Assembly: GCA_945861465.1 (NCBI GenBank)
Contig: CAMAVB010000001.1
Location: forward strand, 1 to 64,000
DNA from: Candidatus Kuenenia stuttgartensis
GTDB taxonomy: Bacteria; Planctomycetota; Planctomycetia; Planctomycetales; Planctomycetaceae
Direction of reading: 5' to 3'
DNA: 64,000 bases
The notes under the pieces were generated by a model that was not told the origin of the DNA, did not search any database, and was given only the letters and a program-made list of their open reading frames with translations. The position numbers were made by a program, and so were the translations under genes. This document shows positions 8,561 through 54,170 of the stretch, one piece after another (position 1 is the stretch's first letter; each line of letters opens with the position of its first letter).

Positions 8561-8885
8561 ACCACGGAATACACTGAATACACGGAAGAATCGCAGGAAA
8601 GCAAAGAAGAAGTAAGGAGGACAAATAGGGGGGAGGATGATTTAGCGGGCGATGCGTTCGATTTGGACTCCGCGAGTTGAGAGACTGACTTTAACTCCAA
8701 CACGCACCTCGGATTGCGTACGACTCGCCTTCGTAGATTATTCTTCACGCGGTGCGAATTGACAATGGCGAGCGGCTGGGCGTGAGCCCTCCGTGGCCCC
8801 TGCATGAACACACGGAGGGCTGACGCCCAGCCGCTCGCCGCTGCCTCTTTCTGCGTTTCCTTTCCGTGTATTCTGTGGTTCCACC
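8561..8885. repeat. ACCACGGAATACAC inverted arms bracketing another palindrome
   Basis: ACCACGGAATACACTGAATA at 8561 and its inverted counterpart TTCCGTGTATTCTGTGGTT at 8862. A related but distinct inverted repeat (AACCACAGATAAACAC) is found at 55955-56030. Confidence 0.65.
8768..8839. repeat. GGCGAGCGG-ended palindrome, copy 1
   Basis: GGCGAGCGGCTGGGCGTGAG with CCCTCCGTG on the left mirrors CACGGAGGGCTGACGCCCAG plus CCGCTCGCC on the right, leaving a loop of about 14 bp. Confidence 0.85.
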
Positions 8886-33842: not shown

Positions 33843-33857
33843 CACGCGCTCGCATCA

Positions 33858-33953
33858 TTGTTGCTCGTGTCTCCGACACGAGTCTTCCCGCCACGGAGTG
33901 TCGGGGCACATTGGGATCCAAAGTTGTAGCTGAATTCGTGAGAATTCAGTTGT
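33858..33953. repeat. GTTGCTCGTGTCTCCGAC element with CTGAATTC palindrome
   Basis: GTTGCTCGTGTCTCCGACAC, GAGTCTTCCCGCCACGGAGT, then GTTGTAGCTGAATTC-GTGA-GAATTCAG, whose last part is a perfect 8-bp hairpin. The inverted partner of GTAGCTGAATT lies beyond the IS at 35641-35651. Confidence 0.75.
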
Positions 33954-34070
33954 TCGAGCAAGAGGATTGAATTGCTTCTAATTGGACAGCGCCATGTTCG
34001 GCAGAGTTGAGAGTCGTAAGTGATTGTTATGATTGGGTTTAATTGCGATTGACGAAAAGGTGAAAAAGAA

Positions 34071-34120
34071 GCGACCCTCCGCGTGATAAATCGTTTCACG
34101 GAGAAACCACGGAAGGTCGC
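34071..34120 (+). promoter_or_regulatory. Hairpin directly upstream of the transposase start
   Basis: GCGACCCTCCGCGTG and CACGGAAGGTCGC-type arms face each other, ending three bases before ATG. Such structures commonly block read-through translation into transposase genes when transcription enters from outside; here that role is inferred. Confidence 0.55.
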
Positions 34121-34123
34121 CCC

Positions 34124-35601
34124 ATGTCAGTGATGTCAGTTCGGCAGATTGCGGGGCTCGGCGGGAAGCTGAGTCGGTTTTTATATCGGTTTCGGAATTG
34201 TTTTGCGAGACCGGCTGGTCGGGCTTTGCTGTTGGCGTACGTGCTGGGCCTGATGTCGGTGGTTCAGCGGAAGAACGTCGAAGCCATGGCGCTGGATCAG
34301 AACATCGCACCTCGGACGTTGCAGCGGCTGCTGGATTCGATTGCCTGGGACCATCACAAGGTCCGGGATCTGTGTCAGCAGATTGTGGCCAAAGAGCACG
34401 CGCATCCTGAGGCCATTGGCTGCATCGACGAGACGGGGACTGTGAAGAGTGGCCCTCACACGGCGGGCGTCAAGCGGCAGTACAACGGGAGTCGCGGCAA
34501 GATCGAGAACTGCGTCAACACGGTCGCGTTGTCGTATTCGGCTCCGGGCTTCAGCGTGCTGCTTGACACGCAGTTGTATCTCCCCGAGGAATGGGCGAAT
34601 GATGCAGCGCGCCGAAAAAAAACTTCATCCCCGACGAAGTCGAATTCCGCACGAAGCCACAGATCGCGATCGATCAGATCGATCGCGCGCTGGCCAACGG
34701 CATCCGCGTCATGGGCTGGACGGCGGATGAATTCTATGGACAGAACGCCGCGTTCCTGAATGCGCTGGACGACCGTGACCAGGCGTTTGTCGTGGAGATT
34801 CCTGGCGACGTTCGTGTGTGGACGCGGAAGCCAAAAGTGCTGAGAAAACAGGGTAAAAACGAACCTGAGCGACAAAAAAAGTTTCCGCGACTGAAGGCCA
34901 GCCAGAAGCCACCGAGCGAAGTTCGCAACCTCGCTCGACACTCGCCCGCGTTCCACGAACAGGCACCGCAGCGCTATCGCATTCGCGACTCACACAAGGG
35001 CAGCGAAGTCTGGGAGATCCGCTGGGTCACCTGCTGGAGACAGACTCACGACGATTCCATCGTGAGCAACCAATGCACGCTGATCGTTGCTCGCAACGTG
35101 CTCACCGACGAGGTGAAATTCTTCCTCTCGAACCGCGTCCCCGGTCGCGACGGATGGACACTGCGGATGATCCTTCGCATCGCCTTCGGTCGCTGGCCGA
35201 TCGAAGACTGCTTCCGCGAAGCGAAGGAAGAACTCGGGCTGGATCACTTCGAATGCCGCAGCTGGCACGGCATCCATCGCCACTTGTTCCTGGTGATCCT
35301 GAGCCAGTTGTTCTGCGCCATCACGCGGCAGAAACTTTCGCCGAGCGAAGACGTCGAAAGCGGCGAACTGCTCACCACCGAACAAGTCCGCCGCGCCGCC
35401 AGCGTCGTCGTCGCGTCCATCACACTTCCCCCGCGATCCCGAAACCAGGCCTTCGAGGCCGAAGCCAACCGTCAGGCCTACTACGCCCGCCGCAACGCCT
35501 CCGCCGCCAAATCCCACCGCAAAAAACGCCGCGTGAAACTCGCCCGACTCGGTATCCACCCCGACAAAATCAAGTCCCTCGAACACCCAAATTCCCAGTA
35601 A
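34124..35601 (+). CDS. IS701-family DDE transposase, split by a frameshift at an A8 run
   Basis: Two overlapping frames together encode one transposase. The first (34124 to about 34620) carries the N-terminal helical part, LDSIAWDHHKVRDL, the first catalytic Asp in IGCIDETG, VKRQYNG, and LLDTQLYLPEEWAND. The second frame, one base back, continues NFIPDEVEFRTKPQIAIDQI, DRALANGIRVMGWTADEFYG with the second Asp, and WPIEDCFREAKEELGLDHFE with the catalytic Glu, to the stop at 35601. The switch lies at AAAAAAAA (34615-34622), a slippery run, so a programmed -1 shift is possible. Otherwise the element is inactive by mutation, or the base count is wrong. IS701 transposases are normally single-frame. 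The C-terminus is Arg/Lys/Ala-rich. Confidence 0.85.
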
Positions 35602-35671
35602 TCCGCGACACTTCCCCAAGAACTTGGCGCTGTCCAACTAATTCAGCTACGGTAGATCCATTTCTGCCGAT

Positions 35672-35759
35672 CGCCCAAGTCAACCCGCGTGTGCCCACAG
35701 GCGACATAATATACCGAACTCGGACCGCGGCACACGTCGGGTTGAACCGCTTGTTAAGC
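35672..35759 (-). other. attC recombination site of the cassette
   Basis: Minus strand. The R-type box GCTTAAC begins two bases after the stop codon of the DUF5071 gene. The arms TTCAACCCGACGTGTGCC and GGGCACACGCGGGTTGACTT pair except for one unpaired A, like an attC extrahelical base. TTGGGCG closes the site; joined to the cassette's TTAGGC it gives GGGCGTTAGGC, with GTTAGGC complementary to GCTTAAC apart from one G-T pair. Length about 94 nt in the circular form. Confidence 0.75.
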
Positions 35760-35760
35760 G

Positions 35761-36159
35761 TCATGTTTCATTTAGCCAATCCAACGCCTCACGTGCTTGC
35801 TCGTCCACTTGTTCAGAACGGTCATTGGCCGTCGGATGATAGGCAAGCTGCATCAAATCGGAGCGAAGTGTTTCAGCCAATGCCCGTGGCATTTTACGAA
35901 TGAGAGCTGCAATGCACCAGTACTTCCAAATCCCGTCATTGCCACCAAATACATGACGGATATGCGGAATGACCGGTTCGCCTATGGAGGCGAGAAAAAT
36001 CGAGATTGAGCCAGAGATTGGCCAGTTGCAATCTTGAAGCCATTCCAGAAGTTCTGGCAGCACGGGAGCGACTGCGGGATACCCGAGTGCAACGATCGCT
36101 CGAGTATGCTCCGAGTCGGATTTGTGTCGCGGGAGTAGAGTATGTGGGTCGACGATCAT
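35761..36159 (-). CDS. DUF5071 family protein in a gene cassette
   Basis: 132 residues and no signal. The DUF5071 pattern is clear: LLPRHKSDSEHTRAIVALGY, PAVAPVLPELLEWLQDCNWP, SIFLASIGEPVIPHIRHVF, DGIWKYWCIAALIRKMP, then a helix and EQVDEQAREALDWL. Such proteins are small HEAT-like helical domains of unknown function and turn up repeatedly in mobile or cassette contexts. Cassette-type edges on both sides (core site 25 bp before the ATG, attC two bases after the stop) explain how it arrived. No promoter is evident within the cassette, so expression may depend on the upstream thioredoxin-like gene, which ends 36 bp before its ATG. Confidence 0.85.
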   Translation of the reverse strand: MIVDPHTLLPRHKSDSEHTRAIVALGYPAVAPVLPELLEWLQDCNWPISGSISIFLASIGEPVIPHIRHVFGGNDGIWKYWCIAALIRKMPRALAETLRSDLMQLAYHPTANDRSEQVDEQAREALDWLNET

Positions 36160-36195
36160 TCCGTTGGCGCTCGATTTGTTCCGCCTAACGCCTAA

Positions 36196-37368
36196 TTAAT
36201 AGCCGGTCGTCATTATGTCCAGAATCTTTGCCAGCAGGTCTTCTTCCTTGATCTCCCCTGTGTGGCGGAACACAATTTTTCCGCCAGGGGCGATGAGCAC
36301 CGAGTGCGGCTGCGGACCTTCCCAGTCGGGATCGAGGGCCTGCATCAGCGAGTCCATACTGGGTTCGGTGTAGAGATAGTTGTTTGACTTACGCCCCTCT
36401 TTTTCCAGTGATGGCTTCAATTTCGCGGGGAGTGCGGCACGCTGTTTGTCAAGAAATGCGGAGACTCGCACGCGGTCGTCGGGGAGATCGGTGCTGAGTG
36501 TGATGAGTTCAAAATCTCGCAGGCCCATGCGGCGGGAGATGCGGACCAGTGCGGGAAACTCCACGATGCATGGGGCGCAACTGGTGGACCAGACGTTGAT
36601 CAATCGATACTTGCTGGTATCGTTCTTCACCATTGCGGCGACTCCTTCCGAGGTGATATCATCGAGCGTGACTTTCGCCTGTTCCCAATTCTCGTTGTCC
36701 TTCATGACGTCGGGGATTTTTTCCCGCCACTTGGTCGAACAGCCGAACGGTTTCGTTTCTGCCACGGCCACAGGCTTGCCTTCCAGCAGAGCCAGAATGG
36801 CGTCTCTCGCATCATGTCGTATGACAGTCGAGGCATCCGGAAATCGCGAGTCATCCAGCCAGCCCTGATATTGCAATTTGCGGGCTTGATCGAACACGAA
36901 AACGTGTGGTGTCGCGAGACAACCGTACGACTTCGCAACGGTCTGCGTCGCTCCGTCGTAGAGGTACGGAAATGTGAAGCCTTCGTCTTTGGCATACAAC
37001 TTCATGTGTTCGAAACTGTCGTCGTATTTTGAATAGCCCAGTTCGTCGGGCCGAAGTCCGTCGCCGGAATTCGGATTGATCGCCACGATCGCGACACTCT
37101 TTCCTGCCAGGTCGTTCAGCAGTGTGAGCAAGCGAGGATCCTGGGCATGACACACAGGGCAATGGTTCGATGTAAAATAGACAATCAGTACTTTTGTGTC
37201 TTTAAAATCAGACAAGCTCCAGTTGCGATCATCAATGCCCGGCAATTTGAAGTCGGGTGCTCGATCGCCGATCGCCAGCTTCTGAAATCCGGGCGGATTG
37301 TCCGCCGCGAATCCATGTGGCAGGAATGACAGCAGGCAGACCAACAGACTCAAAATCGTCTTCATCAT
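36196..37368 (-). CDS. Secreted protein with two thioredoxin-like domains
   Basis: 390 residues. The signal peptide (ILSLLVCLLSFLPHGFAA) is followed by an AhpC/TSA-type redoxin domain (about 30-185) with FTSNHCPVC and later TPHVFVFD. A second TlpA/ResA-like domain has VWSTSCAPC (about 265). Both keep CxxC, and both have the Pro before a late strand (TPHVFV, QPHSVLI). Two thioredoxin folds in one exported chain suggest periplasmic thiol-disulfide exchange, with the redox partner unknown. An AGGGATC sequence lies before the ATG. The gene cassette with DUF5071 begins right after its stop. About 600 bp upstream lies a small secreted protein gene in the same direction, separated by a terminator-like hairpin. 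Confidence 0.85.
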   Translation of the reverse strand: MMKTILSLLVCLLSFLPHGFAADNPPGFQKLAIGDRAPDFKLPGIDDRNWSLSDFKDTKVLIVYFTSNHCPVCHAQDPRLLTLLNDLAGKSVAIVAINPNSGDGLRPDELGYSKYDDSFEHMKLYAKDEGFTFPYLYDGATQTVAKSYGCLATPHVFVFDQARKLQYQGWLDDSRFPDASTVIRHDARDAILALLEGKPVAVAETKPFGCSTKWREKIPDVMKDNENWEQAKVTLDDITSEGVAAMVKNDTSKYRLINVWSTSCAPCIVEFPALVRISRRMGLRDFELITLSTDLPDDRVRVSAFLDKQRAALPAKLKPSLEKEGRKSNNYLYTEPSMDSLMQALDPDWEGPQPHSVLIAPGGKIVFRHTGEIKEEDLLAKILDIMTTGY

Positions 37369-53776: not shown

Positions 53777-54170
53777 GAGATCCTCCTTGATTTGTGACAG
53801 CTCCAGAATGCAACGATACCGCACGCGGTCGGCATTGGGTCGTTTAACCGCGTGCCCAGCGGGCCGCGATTGCCCTGTCTGAAATTTGAAATTTGAAATA
53901 CGAAGCGCGGGGCGTTGCCCACGCGGTTAAACGAATGTGCCATCTTCCACCACGGGCGGTATAACTCCCAATCGCACATTGCGAATTATGCCATCGGAAA
54001 GCAAGTTGTAAAGTCCGACCTTCGTCGAAACAGCGGATCCATCCGCACGAGGGGACTGTCGTTGTAATCGTTTAACGGCGAGCCGCAGGCGTCGTTCCCA
54101 GGTTTCGCCTACGCCTGCGGCTCGCCGTTAAACGAAAATCCCGTCATTGAAGACTAAAACGACGGTCCCC
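53777..54170. other. Intergenic gap with two repeats
   Basis: Contains the AACCGCGTGCCCAGCGGGC element copy 2 (53824-53945) and a nested 24-bp palindrome (54050-54172). No gene recognised. Confidence 0.65.
53824..53945. repeat. AACCGCGTGCCCAGCGGGC element, copy 2
   Basis: Near-identical to 22471-22602: CGGTCGGCATTGGGTCGTTT, AACCGCGTGCCCAGCGGGCC, GAAATTTGAAATTTGAAATA, GCGCGGGGCGTTGCCCACGC and GGTTAAACGA. Differences are scattered, with one in each arm near the end. Confidence 0.87.

Follow-up and report, generated by a model that had tools for sequence, protein, structure and literature searches.

We found that positions 35672-36188 (minus strand) of the window, by which we mean the whole 64,000-nucleotide stretch of planctomycete DNA analysed here, are a genuine solitary integron gene cassette in a non-classical site. 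Its gene encodes a DUF5071 protein, and we consider it very probable that an integron integrase (IntI), acting in trans, placed the cassette circle in an attG or secondary site and left a SALIN. The source genome comprises 8.2 Mb in 474 contigs, and the cassette lies on a contig of 128 kb (C1).

Direct reading of the minus strand (slashes mark junctions) gave ...GGC TAT TAA TTA GGCG/TTAGGCGGAAC...ATG on the left side and TGA C GCTTAAC AAGCGG TTCAACCCG A CGTGTGCC ...loop... GGCACACG CGGGTTGA CTTGGGCG/ATCGGCAG on the right (Table 1). The cassette thus starts at G36189/T36188 TAGGC, with TTAGGC conforming to TTRRRY, and ends at G35672/A35671 TCGGC, such that its last base is G35672 and the cassette circle would carry an R' box GTTAGGC (G/TTRRRY) that is complementary to R'' GCTTAAC through six Watson-Crick pairs and one G-T. 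Between these ends lies a single short ORF in the cassette direction, as expected of a gene cassette, with a leader of 29 nt from cleavage point to ATG and one base between the TGA stop and R''. The attC (94 bp, measured to the R box) possesses R and L boxes, the conserved fold and an extrahelical base, A35737. The initial annotation had described a DUF5071 cassette with complete attC at these positions, with arms pairing around one unpaired A and ends that rejoin to GTTAGGC opposite GCTTAAC, and we located every one of these sequence elements; it had also read the outer junction G/AT as fitting secondary integration sites, in line with the cleavage of GAT between G and A reported in PMC10127599. 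Two of its spacings needed adjustment, as the core placed 25 bp before the ATG is close for the end of TTAGGC (23 nt) but not for the cleavage point, and the attC begins one base after the stop, not two.

Table 1. Features of the cassette locus, in window coordinates.
Feature	Position	Strand	Basis
Integron gene cassette, complete, 517 bp, TTAGGC...GGGCG	35672..36188	-	boundaries read directly; attC model match; joined flanks match a repeat known also without the cassette
Cassette ORF, 132 aa, DUF5071 (PF16804), all-helical, HEAT/ARM-like	35761..36159	-	profile match and predicted structure
Left recombination junction G/TTAGGC	36183..36189	-	direct reading; pairs with R'' GCTTAAC after circularisation
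attC site, R'' GCTTAAC to half-lost R' box (GATCGGC)	35666..35759	-	R3 match; top window match of R1 and R2; folds
attC R'' GCTTAAC	35759-35753	-	
attC arm L'' with extrahelical A35737	35746-35729	-	
attC arm L'	35696-35680	-	
Left target remnant: TTA (probable 3-bp target duplication of repeat) and GGCG (terminal inverted repeat tip)	36189..36195	-	repeat comparison
Right target remnant ATCGGCAGAAATGGATCTACCGTAGCTGAAT, repeat continuation; junction G35672/A35671	35641..35671	-	matches repeat copies of congener G011 at 28/31 bases
Distal repeat part, severed by insertion sequence	33919..33978	-	alignment of joined flanks
Redoxin/thioredoxin-like gene, upstream, co-directional; stop codon 7 nt before cassette	36196..37368	-	ORF and profile match
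Insertion sequence with DDE_5 transposase, inserted mid-repeat	33979..35640	+	terminal repeats; second copy

We evaluated the attC site with three covariance models, of which R1 derives from class 1 cassettes and was made without the source genome, R2 includes the window site, and R3 was built from 29 attC of other planctomycete genomes with the source genome left out. R2 is therefore no test of this site (its top window match is also here), though its matches pointed to intI-adjacent arrays in congeners and it helped to find the R3 training sites, which stand on their own covariation and array position. In the R3 training alignment, 14 pairs of the 16-pair L helix show two-sided changes, no pair shows a one-sided change, and shifting the pairing register abolishes this covariation. 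With filters off, R3 gave the attC site 40.3 bits (E=1e-8) within the window, where the runner-up reached 15.5 bits, and at E=1.3e-6 against the whole genome. The best full-window match of R1 was the same site, a weak one (12.9 bits, E=0.39) owing to a long loop and a right R box that reads GATCGGC; elsewhere in the source genome R1 found clear attC matches. As a single strand the attC folds better than 200/200 dinucleotide shuffles (z about -3.1 to -3.4), and a scan for R'' plus GWT plus 12/12 arm pairs around one bulge returned one site in the 64-kb window and none in 6 shuffled windows. A covariance model had been proposed as the check on the cassette reading, and R3, independent of the source genome, bears it out; what had been named as contrary evidence, the lack of any model match together with this palindrome recurring at the corresponding position in distant relatives, was not encountered. 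Strict IUPAC attC patterns found no site in the source genome and nearly none in 392 planctomycetes, because the planctomycete R' is often GTTNNNC rather than GTTRRRY, such that covariance models are needed; a crude arm scanner overlooked native attC. Separately, near-perfect palindromes with GTTTAAC/GTTAAAC ends are repeated in the genome (window 54070-54133 and 53842-53932; L024:3051-3116; L025:4714-4817) and are not attC by model score.

The cassette protein matches the DUF5071 profile at 99.5 bits (cut-off 27), and its structure is predicted to be all-helical (mean pLDDT 96.5), with a fold matching 3UT7 and 3UT4, two solved but uncharacterised proteins, at TM 0.84-0.85. This HEAT/ARM-like predicted fold suggests a protein-binding role. 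A role as a defence gene was considered and dropped, there being no PADLOC match; DUF5071 was not named in any paper found by our literature search, and a plasmid DNA search gave no match. Only 5/392 planctomycete genomes hold a DUF5071 above the cut-off, a rarity in the phylum that fits lateral gain. The relatives in Pirellula are not located in cassettes, and in one Pirellula MAG an attC (L049:1759-1848, 55 bits) lies ~1.2 kb upstream of a non-cassette DUF5071 gene.

Joining the two flanks of the cassette restores TTA GGCG/ATCGGCAGAAATGG, which corresponds to one terminus of a palindromic repeat with dispersed copies (target sequence at the insertion point, GGCGATCGGCAG), and predicts the intact repeat of the empty locus as TTAGGCG-ATCGGCAG. 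Copies of this repeat that are empty of the cassette number four among the loci retrieved from congener G011 (L210, L214, L218, L222), and two related copies occur in the source genome (L194 position 142, minus strand; L024 position 8). In the repeat copies GGCG precedes the 31-base stretch, the same four bases that end the cassette's left flank, and three G011 copies have the inverted termini GGCGAGCGGCAG...CTGCCGCTCGCC, accompanied by probable 3-bp duplications (TAA, CTA, TAA), from which the repeat looks like a MITE. When the sequence past the insertion sequence (IS) is added to the left flank and these 31 bases, ~100 bp of repeat are restored. The left-side match is short (GGCG and a plausible TTA duplication), with 7/8 nt agreeing with the repeat copy and 7e-4 of window 8-mers matching equally well, so the assignment of the target to the repeat rests on both flanks meeting at the same repeat point. 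Measured against the paralogous empty copies, the cassette interrupts the terminal repeat 4 nt from its end, at G/AT, and is exactly 517 bp, with 0 target bases duplicated or lost. The G011 copies read G/AG where the window reads G/AT; either the target carried a substitution or the change came later, and the window G/AT may be a variant that made its repeat copy usable as a target.

The nearby IS does not account for the right junction. Its terminal repeats TAATTGGACAGCGCC (33979-33999 pairing with 35620-35640) and a second copy on contig C13, which stops at the equivalent of 35640, place its end 31 bp from the cassette; the 31 bases between are therefore target DNA, and the IS is ruled out as the maker of G/AT. 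Its transposase is broken across two frames (34124-34759 and 34711-35601). Close to it, at window 33850-33915, is a ~63-bp repeat (TGTGCCCCGACACTCCGTGGCGGG...) that is dispersed in congeners G014 and G005.

The window contains no intI and no second attC, contig C1 has no intI match and hence no complete integron with intI and attI beside the cassette, and the nearest other attC on the contig, among the matches listed, is about 68 kb off (C1:103988-104632). Elsewhere the source genome holds at least 51 attC matches (E<=1, R3; attC counts per genome are lower bounds), including an array of at least 8 attC on contig C147 and attC adjoining intI on contigs C223 and C52, while ~10 among the matches listed are solitary within the several kb retrieved either side. 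Solitude near contig ends is uncertain for those other cassettes in this fragmented assembly, and the window site is unaffected. Genes resembling intI exceed the family cut-off on C322, C223, C52, C102, C191 and C333, several of them partial or interrupted and at least 2 full-length. The C322 IntI retains the catalytic R..HxLRH..GH..Y set and the IntI-specific insert, and in the C223 IntI a Leu replaces the catalytic Arg of HxLRH (HSLLH); IntI of this genome (L022:1210-2541, L021:6719-8047) carry ~110 extra N-terminal residues.

These surveys also bear on the remaining claims of the initial annotation, beyond which the repeat identity of the target and the other integrons of the genome are additions. 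Its suggestion of looking for intI elsewhere was borne out by these genes and the many attC; its picture of one cassette behind a thioredoxin-like gene without an integron platform holds locally and fails genome-wide; and its predicted empty site, TTAGGCG then ATCGGC, is recovered as a paralogous repeat end (28/31 on the right, terminal repeat tip GGCG on the left), the neighbouring thioredoxin-like gene that would mark the orthologous locus being absent from 17 congeners at E<=1e-60.

Several further sites were observed. Single cassettes follow attI-like sequences without intI on C58, C101 and C227; two attI-like families lie beside intI (C223, C52; L022:1055, L023:823 and 11960) and before these lone cassettes (L188, C58:16633; L193, C101:5921; L194, C227:6025), forming units of orphan attI plus cassette. 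On contig C62 a 60-bp attC of class 1/proteobacterial type (L107:9671-9730, minus strand, 47.6 bits with R1) lies beside a dihydrolipoamide dehydrogenase gene with right junction G/TTTAGG, and planctomycete G428, from another family of the class, has attC-type sites at L094:9843-9917 and 8660-8749 (pattern and model).

We propose the following course for the insertion. IntI would bind the cassette attC, folded from its bottom strand, and join the cassette at G/TT to the target GGCG/ATCGGC. This target is located 4 nt into the terminal repeat of the small, dispersed palindromic element that follows the thioredoxin-like gene, and the reaction would give G/TTAGGC on the left and G/ATCGGC on the right with no target duplication. 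Such conservative joining of G/TT to G/AT is the behaviour of IntI at secondary sites. The IS entered the same element, either before or after the cassette. Lacking an integron promoter, the cassette gene probably owes its expression to transcripts reading through from the thioredoxin-like gene, since the two are co-directional and its start is 36 nt from the upstream stop.

We weighed other histories against this insertion in trans. That the cassette is the relic of a larger integron or CALIN, whose neighbours were deleted and left one cassette by chance, gains some plausibility from the arrays and the single cassettes at attI-like sequences without intI, which indicate that integron decay occurs in this genome; we regard it as quite improbable here, given that the two flanks join into one repeat unit, which is unexpected from a deleted array, that the left flank consists of 3'-terminal coding sequence of the redoxin-like gene with none of the attI-like motifs of the other single cassettes, and that the right flank G/AT is not a cassette start. 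A slightly smaller chance attaches to entry of the cassette into a repeat copy elsewhere that then moved or was copied here with it: the repeat looks mobile, the G011 copies having matching terminal repeats and probable 3-bp duplications, but no second cassette-bearing copy was present among the loci retrieved, and the distal end of the window copy, where its own duplication would lie, is lost or diverged beyond 33919. An ordinary intergenic palindrome or terminator resembling attC by chance, for which the other GTTTAAC/GTTAAAC-ended palindromes such as window 54070-54133 might be cited, is refuted by the R3 score (40.3 bits against at most 15.5 for the others) combined with the flanks rejoining to a repeat. 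In addition, the R box and extrahelical A, the arm lengths, the cassette start and the spacing to the gene all agree, and the scan for R'' plus GWT plus arm pairs gave no site in 6 shuffled windows.

Insertion in trans, the reading we favour, is of a known kind; the novelty lies in an empty site read from paralogous copies and in its occurrence in a planctomycete. With one attC, one cassette and no intI close by, the locus resembles other SALINs and differs in that its target is resolved to the base through the empty paralogous copies. It likewise resembles the insertion of cassettes at attG sites (Loot et al. 2024, Nat Microbiol 9:228, as cited in PMC12444791, PMC12901181 and PMC12690207), as the target is neither attI nor attC and is cut at a G-(A/T)-T triplet, precise insertion being read here from paralogous empty copies only; the test cited there is an E. 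coli assay, whereas ours is a natural event in planctomycete DNA, with the cassette placed within a repeat's own terminal repeat. In the secondary-site integration described for IntI (Francia 1993, as cited in PMC10127599), the cut likewise falls between G and A of GAT, although plasmid and class 1 integrons were involved. Compared with planctomycete chromosomal integrons (attC model, Ghaly 2021, PMC8352920; intI survey, PMC2426708), the ~90-bp attC has the same fold as in arrays beside intI in congeners, but the cassette is solitary and its attC score of 40 bits is below most array members, which reach up to 84-94.

Cassette insertion outside integrons has been described only recently, the cited test being an E. 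coli assay, and the window offers a natural case that can be read against empty paralogous repeat copies, which gives the reaction to the base: no duplication and a cut at G/AT. With about 50 attC in one planctomycete genome, several of which stand alone, the frequency with which cassettes leave integrons becomes directly countable. More speculatively, and with the odds clearly against it, dispersed MITE-like repeats may serve in this genus as natural attG landing sites that scatter cassettes under host-gene promoters; if so, the ~10 solitary cassettes of this genome would make up a standing population that is served by integrase though it lies outside any array.
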